Origin: Oscillospiraceae bacterium
GTDB taxonomy: Bacteria > Bacillota > Clostridia > HGM11514
Assembly: GCA_015068925.1 (NCBI GenBank)
Contig: SVJP01000005.1
Coordinates: 1-38,464, forward strand
DNA: 38,464 nucleotides
Direction of reading: 5' to 3'
Under the pieces are notes generated by a model. The model was not told the origin of the DNA. It saw only the letters and a list, made by a program, of their open reading frames with translations, and made no database searches. The translations under genes and the position numbers were made by a program. Position 1 is the stretch's first letter, and the number at the start of each line of letters is the position of its first letter. Shown piece by piece: positions 154-34,431 of the stretch.

Positions 154-159
154 ACTGCT

Positions 160-345
160 CCGGGGCATAAGCCTTTCTCTGTCTGGCATCCAGCCCCTCC
201 ACGGACAGTCGCCTAAGCGATTCCGTAGCTCGAAAAACAGAAAACGAAAAGGCGTGTTTTCTTGGTTTTTCAAGCGTACTCATGGCTTAGCCTCCTTGCT
301 CCGGGGCATAAGCCTTTCTCTGTTCGGGGCATAAGCCTTTCTTTT
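160..345 (-). repeat. GGGGCATAAGCC family repeat, copy A (putative structured RNA in minus orientation)
   Basis: CGGGGCATAAGCCTTTCTCTGT at both ends; shared layout with copies B and C; CTAAGC/GCTTAG and AGAAAAC/GTTTTCT stems. Confidence 0.7.
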
Positions 346-440
346 CGAAAATTTTTCGAAATCTAAGGTTTCTATTGACAAAGGGTTGAAATTATAATAT
401 AATCAAACAAAAAATAAACCGAATCGAAAGGAAGAAAATT

Positions 441-9598: not shown

Positions 9599-10157
9599 TG
9601 TAGTAAAATAATTTATGCTATCGCCCCGGATCGTTTCAGGGTGGGAGAAAAACAGTGCAGAATGGACAAAACGAGCAAAAGCAAGGGATTCCCTTGCTTC
9701 AGCCTGTCGATAAACCTATCGACAGGCTGGCAGACCAAGAAAAAGGAAGGGATATTTTGTCAAAATGAATCGCAGACAGTACGTTGGTACGGCAAGTGTT
9801 CATTTTGGCAAAAAGCAAGTAACCGTCTGGGAAATTCAATATTTTCCAGACGGTTTTTTACGGTTTTATTATAGATGAAACATCCATAATTCAATCTTTT
9901 TTCCTTTTGTGTGCTTGCGGTAGACCGACTTTTTCGACGGTCAGAAGCAAGGGATTCCCTTGCTTTTGGTTACCCGAAGCCGTATGTGGATACGACGAGA
10001 GGTGAGTTTTGTTCATAGCGCATAGCATTCATTGAAATGAAATTCGTTGTATCACGAATTTTTACCTCTTGTTTTCTGTTATTTGTGAAACTTTAGTTTG
10101 TCTGAAAGGCTTGAATAAAGGGTTTTTTGCTTTGTGCGATCTGTGCATTTTGTTACA
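9599..10157. mobile_element. MITE-like element, copy 2, split by a nested insertion
   Basis: Terminal repeats TGTAGTAAAAT (9599) and ATTTTGTTACA (ending 10157); flanks GAGC[hairpin]GGTTACCCGAAG match copy 1; 559 bp minus 245-bp insert and 21-bp duplication = 293 bp, close to 291 bp in copy 1. Confidence 0.72.
9700..9944. mobile_element. 245-bp nested hairpin-rich insertion flanked by a 21-bp direct repeat
   Basis: AAGCAAGGGATTCCCTTGCTT exact at 9679-9699 and 9945-9965; right half closely matches window positions 1-127. Confidence 0.68.
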
Positions 10158-28079: not shown

Positions 28080-29591
28080 ATGAAACAGTTGATGAGTTTA
28101 ATTATTCTGGATGGTTTTGGAATCAATAATGCAGAATCGGGCAACGCCATTCATTCTGCAAAAACTCCCAATTTGGATGCCTTGTTCCAAAAATATCCTC
28201 ACACCCAAATTGCCGCAAGCGGTATGGATGTAGGATTGCCTGACGGGCAGATGGGAAATTCCGAGGTTGGTCACACCAATATCGGTGCAGGAAGAATTGT
28301 ATATCAGGAATTGACCCGTATCACCAAATCCATTCAGGATGGAGATATGTTTGAAAATCCTGATTTAAAAAGTGCAATGCAAAATTGTATTGAGAAAGGT
28401 ACTGCCTTGCATCTTTTAGGATTGTTGTCTGACGGCGGCGTGCACAGTCATAACACTCACCTGTATGCCTTGATTGAAATGGCAAAGAAAATGGGTGTAA
28501 AGGATATCTGGGTGCATTGTTTCCTGGATGGCAGAGACGTACCCCCTCAGAGCGGTAAGGATTTTGTTCAGGAATTGCAGGAAAAATTGGAAGAAATCGG
28601 TGCAGGTAAGGTGGCAACCGTCATGGGTCGTTACTATGCTATGGACCGTGACAACCGTTGGGAACGCGTTGAAAAAGCTTATGACGCGATGGTAAAAGCA
28701 GAAGGAATCAAGGTTCCCTGTCCCGTTTGTGCCGTTGCAAATTCTTACAAGGAAGAAGTAACCGACGAATTTGTAGTGCCTGCAGTAGTAGAAGGCTTTG
28801 AAGGCATCAAGGAAAATGATTCCATGATTTTCTTTAACTTCCGTCCTGACCGCGCAAGAGAAATTACCAGAACCTTTGTAGACCCCGAGTTTGACGGATT
28901 TGAACGGGAATATTTCCCTGTTCAGTATGTGTGCATGACCCAGTATGATGCTGCAATGCCCAATGTGTCCGTTGCCTACAAGCCCGAAAGCTTAACCGAT
29001 ACCTTCGGAGAATATATCAGCAAGAAGGGACTAAAACAGCTCCGTATTGCTGAAACGGAAAAATATGCCCATGTTACCTTCTTCTTTAATGGCGGCGTAG
29101 AAAAAACCTATGAAGGAGAAAGCCGAATCCTGGTGAATTCTCCCAAGGTTGCCACTTATGATTTACAACCTGAAATGAGTGCTTACGAAGTAACCGAAAA
29201 GGTGTGCGAGCAAATCAGAAGCGGAGAATTGGATGTGATCATCTTAAACTTTGCAAACTGCGACATGGTTGGTCATACCGGTGTGTTTGAAGCGGCAGTT
29301 GCAGCAGTAGAAGCGGTTGACACATGCGTTGGCAAAGTAATGGATGAAATTGAAAAGGTAAACGGAATTGCAATCATTACCGCTGACCACGGAAATGCTG
29401 ATTGCATGGTGGATGACACCACAGGCGGACCCTTTACCGCCCATACCACTAACCCCGTTCCCTTGCTCCTCAATCAGAAGGATGCCAAGCTGAAGGAAGG
29501 CAGACTTGCCGATATTGCTCCCACCATGCTTGACTTGATGGGACTGGAAAAGCCTGCATCCATGACGGGTGAATCTTTGTTAATGAAATAA
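28080..29591 (+). CDS. gpmI: 2,3-bisphosphoglycerate-independent phosphoglycerate mutase
   Basis: [51 protein letters not shown]. Confidence 0.98.
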
Positions 29592-29606
29592 GAATTGAAA
29601 AAACGA

Positions 29607-31136: not shown

Positions 31137-31219
31137 CCGATATTGCTCCTACCATGCTTGACTTGATGTGGCTGGAAAAGCCTGCATCCATGACGGGTGA
31201 ATCTTTGTTAATGAAATAA
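31137..31219 (+). pseudogene. Duplicated gpmI 3' end (83 bp, 80 identical)
   Basis: CCGATATTGCTC..ACCATGCTTGACTTGATG..CTGGAAAAGCCTGCATCCATGACGGGTGAATCTTTGTTAATGAAATAA matches 29509-29591 with 3 mismatches. Confidence 0.95.
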
Positions 31220-31247
31220 AAAAAGTCCGAAACAGAAAAAAAGAAAG

Positions 31248-32782: not shown

Positions 32783-32930
32783 TTTGTCTCTTTCCTCCCT
32801 TCTTGTTTTCTTCATTTTATTATACCACAATCCCTTATTTCGGTCAATTCTTTTTCCCTTTTTCAAAAAAATTTTGTTTTTTTTTGCAATTAGGGGTAGA
32901 TTTTTGTTGAAAAATAGGGTATAATATAAG

Positions 32931-33128
32931 AAGTGCCTATGCACCGAGCAGTGAAACTTAAGCTGCAAGCACAAACGAGAAACCAAGAAAACATGATTTT
33001 TGTTTTCTGTTTTGAGTTTAGCGGAGCTGCTTAAGTGAGCGACCGAGAGGGGCTGGAGGCATGACAAAGAAGTGCCTGTGCACCGCTTTAGTGGACGGGC
33101 AGGGAAAGTAAGCCGTGAGCAAAGCTAT
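32931..33128 (+). repeat. GGGGCATAAGCC family repeat, copy B, plus a partial second unit (putative structured leader RNA)
   Basis: AAGTGCCTATGCACCG...AGTGAAACTTAAGCTGCAAGCACAA...GCGGAGCTGCTTAAGTGAGCGACCGAGAGGGGCTGGAGGC...AAGTGCCTGTGCACCG; starts just after TATAAT at 32920-32925. Confidence 0.7.
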
Positions 33129-33170: not shown

Positions 33171-34118
33171 ATGGCAACCATCACTTGCCCCAATTGTAAC
33201 GCACAATTGGACGAAAACAAAAAATTCTGTACCGAATGCGGAACAAAACTGTTAAAAGAACAACCGGTACAAACAGAACAACCCATAGCAGAAGAACCAA
33301 AAGACGAAATTGCATCTCAGGAAACACAAAAATTTTCATCTTGGGACGACCCGGATATGTCCTTTAAGGATGCTGTCAAGGCAGTATTTCAACAGGACGA
33401 AGAAGAGGAGGAACCCAAACGGAAACCCTTCTGGAAAAAAAGAAAAGAAGAAACTGAAGAGGAAGAAGCTGCATTTGAAGAGGAAGAGTTGGATGCCAAC
33501 CAGCAAACCATTGTAGATTTTTCTGCATTGGCAGGCTCCACCTTGGATGATTCTCCTTATGAACCTATCAGCGCTTGGGGTTTTATCGGTATCTTAGCAT
33601 TACTGGCAATTCCTGTAATCGGATGGATTTTCGCGATTGTCTGGGCATGCGGCGGATGTCGTAAGCTGAACAAGAGAAATTTAGCAAGAGGATATCTGAT
33701 GATTCTTGGCTTGATTGCCATTTTTATTGGTTGTGCATGTTTAGCAATATGGAAAATTGCCCCTGCATTGATTGATACCACCGTTCCTTCCGACCCTGCG
33801 GCACAAACGGAAACTGTTTACACCGTTGAAGGAACAAAGCCTTCTGAAGCAGAGGAAGAACAAATAGACGAAAACAATTCCTTGATTGCTCGGTTACGCG
33901 AAATCGGTCCCGGGATTTGGGATGCTTATTATGACAGAGAGTTAGACGGCGGAGCAGAACTGACTGCGGTATTAGATGGTGACAGGGATACTCTTCTGGG
34001 TATGGGCTACAGTGAAAAAAGTGTTGATCAGGTGTTGAATATAGTTAATGGCGATTTTGAAGCATTAAGCAGTTTGTTAAACCTTGTGGAAGGGCAAACC
34101 GAAGAAGCAACAGAATAA
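33171..34118 (+). CDS. Zinc-ribbon membrane protein with Glu-rich linker
   Basis: ITCPNCNAQLDENKKFCTECGTKL; Glu/Lys-rich segment; two hydrophobic helices; GGAGG before ATG. Confidence 0.75.
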   Translation: MATITCPNCNAQLDENKKFCTECGTKLLKEQPVQTEQPIAEEPKDEIASQETQKFSSWDDPDMSFKDAVKAVFQQDEEEEEPKRKPFWKKRKEETEEEEAAFEEEELDANQQTIVDFSALAGSTLDDSPYEPISAWGFIGILALLAIPVIGWIFAIVWACGGCRKLNKRNLARGYLMILGLIAIFIGCACLAIWKIAPALIDTTVPSDPAAQTETVYTVEGTKPSEAEEEQIDENNSLIARLREIGPGIWDAYYDRELDGGAELTAVLDGDRDTLLGMGYSEKSVDQVLNIVNGDFEALSSLLNLVEGQTEEATE

Positions 34119-34130
34119 GATTGTATAGGA

Positions 34131-34160
34131 AAAATCTCGATTTGATTCGAGGTTTTTCTT
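34131..34160 (+). terminator. Intrinsic terminator
   Basis: AAAATCTCGAtttgatTCGAGGTTTTTCTTTTTT. Confidence 0.8.
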
Positions 34161-34222
34161 TTTTATGGTGGAAATTCTTCGATTTTTATTGAATTTATTT
34201 TTCCGTAGGAAAAATTACCACT

Positions 34223-34375
34223 CGGGGCATAAGCCTTTCTCTGTCCGGCATCCAGCCCCTCTCGGCCACTCACTTAAGCAGCTCCGCTAAGCTCAAAACA
34301 GAAACCTACGATTTCTTCGGTTTCTCCCTTGTGCTTGCAGCTTAAGTTTCGTTGTTCGGGGCATAAGCCTTTCTT
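34223..34375 (-). repeat. GGGGCATAAGCC family repeat, copy C (minus orientation)
   Basis: Reverse complement aligns with copy B over most of its length (GAAACTTAAGCTGCAAGCACAA, TTAGCGGAGCTGCTTAAGTGAG, CCGAGAGGGGCTGGA). Confidence 0.8.
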
Positions 34376-34402
34376 TTCGAAAATTTTTCGAAACCAAATC
34401 TA

Positions 34403-34431
34403 TTGACAAAGAACTGAAAAAAGATTATAAT
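34403..34431 (+). promoter_or_regulatory. Promoter of the MFS gene
   Basis: TTGACA 34403-34408, 17 nt, TATAAT 34426-34431. Confidence 0.8.

Follow-up and report, generated by a model that had tools for sequence, protein, structure and literature searches.

A dispersed and tandemly arrayed family of intergenic repeats with a conserved hairpin fold in an Oscillospiraceae genome, with relatives in another class of the phylum

Three copies of a dispersed repeat (A, B and C) in a 38,464-nucleotide stretch of an Oscillospiraceae genome (hereafter the window, meaning the whole stretch analysed) were identified as members of a large, apparently unnamed family of repeats of about 120-180 letters that have one conserved, RNA-like hairpin fold, and we hold this reading of family and fold with great confidence. 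On balance, we favour the broader view that the family is an unnamed, ERIC/bcr-like structured repeat, both dispersed and tandem, which probably spreads in a mobile-like manner and is partly carried as mRNA tails. The three copies had been reported on these strands in a first-pass annotation, and all were found again (Table 1). Chance was excluded as the source of their likeness because, in comparisons within the window, copies C and B were 80% identical over 159 nt (E = 3e-36) and copies A and C 74% identical (E = 8e-19).

Table 1. Repeat copies in the window and features beside them (DR, direct repeat; R1, covariance model of the own genome)
Feature	Position	Strand	Basis
Copy A, full unit, type-2 core	159-319	-	alignment; R1 170.7 bits
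Copy A, DRs of the unit (own 5′ DR; trailing DR)	302-317; 161-176	-	DR positions
Copy A, extra 5′ DR ahead of the full unit	325-340	-	DR positions
Copy B, full unit, type-1 core	32929-33087	+	DR positions, alignment, R1 match
Copy B, DRs (GTGCCTATGCACC variant)	32931-32946; 33070-33085	+	
Copy C, full unit, type-1 core	34221-34374	-	DR positions, alignment, R1 match
Copy C, DRs	34357-34372; 34223-34238	-	
Perfect TTGACA-17-TATAAT promoter match just past copy A, pointing away from it	375-403	+	
Perfect TTGACA-17-TATAAT promoter match just past copy C, pointing away from it	34403-34431	+	
Terminator-like hairpin 3′ of the zinc-ribbon gene (33171-34118), close to the 3′ side of copy C	34127-34160	+	

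In the whole assembly (2.18 Mb in 220 contigs, 86% complete), 25 BLAST matches to copy B were obtained, and the covariance model R1 detected about 17 units of full or nearly full length as well as several that were truncated; further truncated copies were also found. Each unit consisted of a direct repeat (DR) of about 16-18 nt (AGAAAGGCTTATGCCCCG and variants) and a core of about 115 nt. The units formed arrays of one to three at a spacing of 134-141 nt, normally with n + 1 DRs for n units, a layout that the first-pass annotation had missed, and after the last DR the initial ~20 nt of a further core were often present. The end modules had been described as more alike within a copy than between copies, and the DRs were indeed identical within 13 of the 15 aligned units. 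Three core types were distinguished, of which types 1 and 2 were mixed within the C86 and C1 arrays, one DR variant being common to the units of each array. The family was multi-copy, intergenic and about 100-200 bp in unit length with a strong stem-loop, the features of MITE- and ERIC-like repeats.

The sense strand of each unit is predicted to form one long imperfect hairpin, in which pairing of the 5′ DR with the 3′ end of the core (P1, GGC-TTAT-GCCCC with GGGGC-TGGAT-GCC) would be followed by P3, GA-rich internal loops and an apical stem. In the alignment of 15 own-genome units (A1), P3 was CTTAAGC/GCTTAAG (or a CATAAG stem), the pairs of P4 switched among GC, AU and UA around a GA-rich internal loop, and the apex was an A/T-rich hairpin. 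This fold left 92.9% of the cells paired, with two-sided changes in 12 of 32 pairs, and its covariation score was 0.360 against 0.183 for shuffled alignments (0/500) and at most 0.148 for slid ones. Columns 6, 135 and 148, which lie in the 5′ DR, the core end and the 3′ DR, co-varied as a triplet (G-C-G, A-U-A or U-A-U) beyond every null value (G-test; 60 alignments simulated on the tree). Both the long-range CTTAAGC stem and the inner A/T-rich hairpin recognised earlier were kept in every copy. The mini-hairpin that had been placed at each end fared differently: as an isolated hairpin it was convincing in copy B only, and in place of two separate end hairpins the modules proved to be direct repeats whose main partner is the 3′ end of the core.

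No family member was found in 60 genomes of the same class, nor in 391 searched with tighter filters, under which weak matches are lost. A phylum-wide model search of several hundred genomes gave one distant match (genome G773; E = 5e-5 for one genome), and a second copy lay 355 nt off. The end-module pattern derived from G773 was found in 30 of 121 genomes, covering 11 of 25 sampled genera, of f213, a family from a different class of the phylum, and the reversed control pattern gave 0 matches. This family is called Bacillaceae-like because two plasmid matches carry Bacillaceae names (Anoxybacillus and Cytobacillus); similar sequences may occur in other Bacillaceae genomes. The f213 copies were mostly in tandem layouts with a period of 119-177 nt and longer.

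The relationship held in both directions. With R1, members were detected in 29 of 30 f213 loci at E < 0.05 (best 4e-8), the last locus giving 0.065. With the f213 covariance model (R2) run against 160 kb, the top ten matches were all own-genome units on the correct strand, with E values down to 9e-5 (0.004 for window copy C and 0.02 for window copy A); 31 kb of other DNA gave no more than 12.9 bits. A seemingly lineage-specific repeat, whose presence in another class had gone unnoticed in the first-pass annotation, shares with the f213 repeat its fold, its end module (TGGA-GCYRGACA-AGAAARGC), its DR-core-DR tandem layout and its stop-codon position; judged by sequence, an f213 unit that had lost a helix, AGCGCCT/AGGCGCT, from both sides would resemble that of the window family. 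Three matches of the strict end-module pattern in the contigs of the genome were set aside as chance, since the model gave at most 7.9 bits there.

Because there are only three core types, much of the remaining covariation in the own genome reflects few events, a worry answered by f213, because that clade covaries independently. In the alignment of 20 f213 units (A2), 94.0% of the cells were paired, two-sided changes occurred in 20 of 38 pairs, and the covariation score was 0.373 against 0.131 for shuffled and at most 0.110 for slid alignments. Covariation among further copies, which had been named beforehand as a test of the proposed RNA, was therefore strong in the own genome and strong again in an independent clade. 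Most units have two like DRs, so that either could pair with the core end. Arrays L127 and L146 of f213 are mixed, with DRs that differ from one unit to the next; there the core end matched the 5′ DR at 7/7 positions in both, against 4/7 (L127) and 5/7 (L146) for the 3′ DR. Across A2, pairing with the core end was 100% for the 5′ DR and 93.6% for the 3′ DR. The closing helix is formed by the 5′ DR and the 3′ end of the core, and switching of the core end between the 5′ and 3′ DRs was rejected as a conserved feature, only the 5′ DR matching in the mixed arrays.

The arrays frequently abutted stop codons, a position that had also escaped the first-pass annotation. Seven own-genome loci closely followed a gene in the sense orientation, and the array began -1 to +2 nt from the stop codon at six of 15 own loci; at C61, the upstream ORF extended 26 nt into the element. 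In f213, 12 of 25 arrays started between -2 and +4 nt of a stop codon ending a frame of at least 100 codons. Among non-ORF positions drawn at random from the own contigs, the expected share was 1.8%, even with a wider range of -30 to +10. The genes upstream of the seven own loci, which were identified with Pfam (the f213 frames being open frames by length alone), were unrelated: HisB, PyrI, fucose isomerase, DnaB_2, an AraC regulator, a PFL-like enzyme and an AMP-binding enzyme. A separate observation is that, at L049 (4930-7584), a single frame of 884 aa comprises an AraC-type HTH and a pyruvate-formate-lyase-like enzyme. Terminator-like hairpins on the same strand were found downstream of three of the seven own and five of the 12 f213 stop-abutting arrays (0/190 shuffles). 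Given this start at the stop codon, and a terminator downstream of some of them, these arrays are likely to be transcribed, forming the beginning of the 3′ UTR; several of them lie ahead of the terminator of the gene. Around half of the arrays did not abut a stop codon, and all three window copies were of this kind.

An effect of the repeats on mRNA can be proposed tentatively, by analogy: the most likely one would be that the strong structure caps the 3′ end of the mRNA and alters its decay, as the cases of ERIC (PMC2229807) and bcr3 (PMC3446304) suggest. A bolder and rather improbable proposal is a new class of structured 3′-UTR element, present at stop codons in two or more classes of one phylum and coupled to the ribosome as it terminates; by covering the 5′ DR, a ribosome on the stop codon would open P1 and expose the core, so that the fate of the mRNA would depend on translation and the array length would set the strength.

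Copies A and C stood back to back with the perfect promoter matches of downstream genes; in this opposite orientation they lie just outside the promoter and may insulate it. Between each of them and the promoter match lay a near-palindrome, TTTCGAAAAATTTTCGAAA (345-371 and 34372-34398), a possible operator. Copy B was located upstream of the zinc-ribbon gene, and no promoter match was found in front of it at the threshold of the tool.

Units appear to be gained and lost, in line with the unit-wise amplification suggested in the first-pass annotation. The loci C1, C86 and C218 shared their 5′ flank, and C1 and C218 also their 3′ flank, with three, three and no full units, respectively. The further DR after each unit is the start of a next unit, complete or truncated, and recombination between DRs would add or remove units. 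At copy A a DR-AACAG-DR junction was seen, and the extra DR there is probably the remnant of an internal deletion between short repeats.

The arrays adjoined other small repeats. A 61-bp palindromic repeat (GTGGTAATTTTTCC...TTTCCACCA; window 34161-34221) had four copies in the genome, all four adjoining or near arrays of the main family, and repeats of the form ATGAATTG-hairpin-ATGAATTG (L042 9352-9381, L048 5146-5195, L044 274-299 and L052 2050-2079) lay near such arrays in five of six genome matches. Two further repeats were noted in the window, namely an 86-bp direct repeat (29509-29594 and 31137-31222, 95% identical) and a longer dispersed repeat of ~190-250 bp with a terminator-like hairpin (1-127 and 9816-9942, 95% identical), which also occurred in C61, C190, C157 and C1 and in which several contigs ended.

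The family appears to be non-autonomous, as in the ERIC/bcr/BIME class, and probably spreads in trans like small mobile DNA. An alternative, that it is purely selfish MITE/REP-like DNA whose hairpins serve, as folded DNA, as recognition sites for a trans-acting transposase, with the adjacency to stop codons a target preference and the RNA structure a by-product, would account for copies dispersed between unrelated genes and nested with other repeats, for the patchy distribution in f213 (30/121 genomes) and for the gain and loss of units between paralogous loci; we nevertheless consider it unlikely. No target-site duplication was seen by eye in the flanks of the arrays, an empty site did not come to light, and no mobiliser was found among the IS200-type Y1 transposases of the genome, whose ends are unrelated to the family, a Y1/RAYT mobiliser from this source being rejected accordingly. 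In the stems, G-U was more frequent than A-C (27:9 and 41:8, the excess concentrated in few columns), and such a bias towards one strand favours RNA or a single strand. The family was also nearly absent from phage and plasmid collections: the window copies had no match there or among viral contigs, and the f213 relatives in plasmid records were one from Anoxybacillus and one from Cytobacillus. The position at stop codons makes the choice between selfish DNA and the tuning of mRNA decay directly testable in culturable Bacillaceae.

A trans-acting small RNA with its own promoter (a free, possibly polymeric ncRNA) would agree with the strong conserved fold, with the polymeric arrays and with the nesting, within long f213 units, of Bacillaceae-1 RNA, which Rfam classes as an sRNA gene, yet it is very unlikely given that no promoter-like site preceded copy B at the threshold used, that abutment to stop codons puts many arrays inside mRNA and that each genome has many diverged copies. 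Type-2 units (L041 3088-3247, L042 9408-9707 and window 159-319) were seen in a six-frame reading to have AAGGAGG, an ATG and a short ORF, of 47 codons with an ATGA overlap where another type-2 unit follows. That the unit encodes a small peptide is hardly credible even so, every frame being broken by stops in type-1 and type-3 units, copy A being frameshifted and the variation following base pairs, and a coding role was rejected with no frame open across the core types.

The earlier designation as a candidate unnamed structured RNA agreed with the comparison with Rfam 15, in which the window gave 0 matches at the gathering cut-off. Scans of arrays at low threshold yielded chance-like matches only; one to archaeal RNase P (18 bits against a cut-off of 84) did not recur in other copies and was discarded. 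Ribozyme and riboswitch classes likewise gave no Rfam match at threshold in the window, and the neighbours were unrelated genes of no one pathway. Among ten relative loci compared with Rfam, the sole match at threshold was Bacillaceae-1 RNA (RF01690), which lay inside the long 355-nt units of L114 (900-961 and 1255-1316); a whole 67-position match above the cut-off was absent from the window and the other nine loci. With respect to the present family, RF01690 is an extra arm in some relatives, and the RNA that Rfam calls Bacillaceae-1 thus seems to belong, in some genomes at least, to a larger repeat as one of its arms. This motif was listed as a Bacillaceae candidate (PMC2864571) and its strand was called uncertain (PMC4333381); its nesting in a larger tandem unit at L114 may help settle its strand and extent.

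A literature search for the sequence of the repeat returned nothing relevant, and no paper describing the family was found. Several known systems are nevertheless similar. REP/BIME elements, for which roles in transcription termination and mRNA stabilisation are proposed (PMC3733652), are palindromic intergenic repeats like the present ones when associated with RAYT (an IS200/IS605-type transposase), whereas the unit of the window family is much longer, the ends of the own-genome Y1 transposases are unrelated, and no repeats flanking a Y1 TnpA-REP gene were found in the own genome. Stem-loop families of other Bacillus species, e.g. Bhal-1, are listed in PMC2267715. ERIC/IRU, a 127-bp enterobacterial repeat co-transcribed with its neighbours and linked to mRNA stability (PMC2229807), is likewise a small structured intergenic repeat of ~100-200 bp; compared by description, the window family differs in being tandem with normally n + 1 DRs, in having no target-site duplication found and in often beginning between -2 and +4 nt of a stop codon. 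The repeats bcr1-bcr18 of the Bacillus cereus group are dispersed and often transcribed in UTRs, bcr3 being correlated with a longer half-life and bcr10 and bcr18 having conserved structure (PMC3446304). Whereas bcr elements are described for the B. cereus group, the window family is built of tandem DR-core units, and, set apart from bcr by description, it is apparently a new and unnamed family of small structured intergenic repeats.
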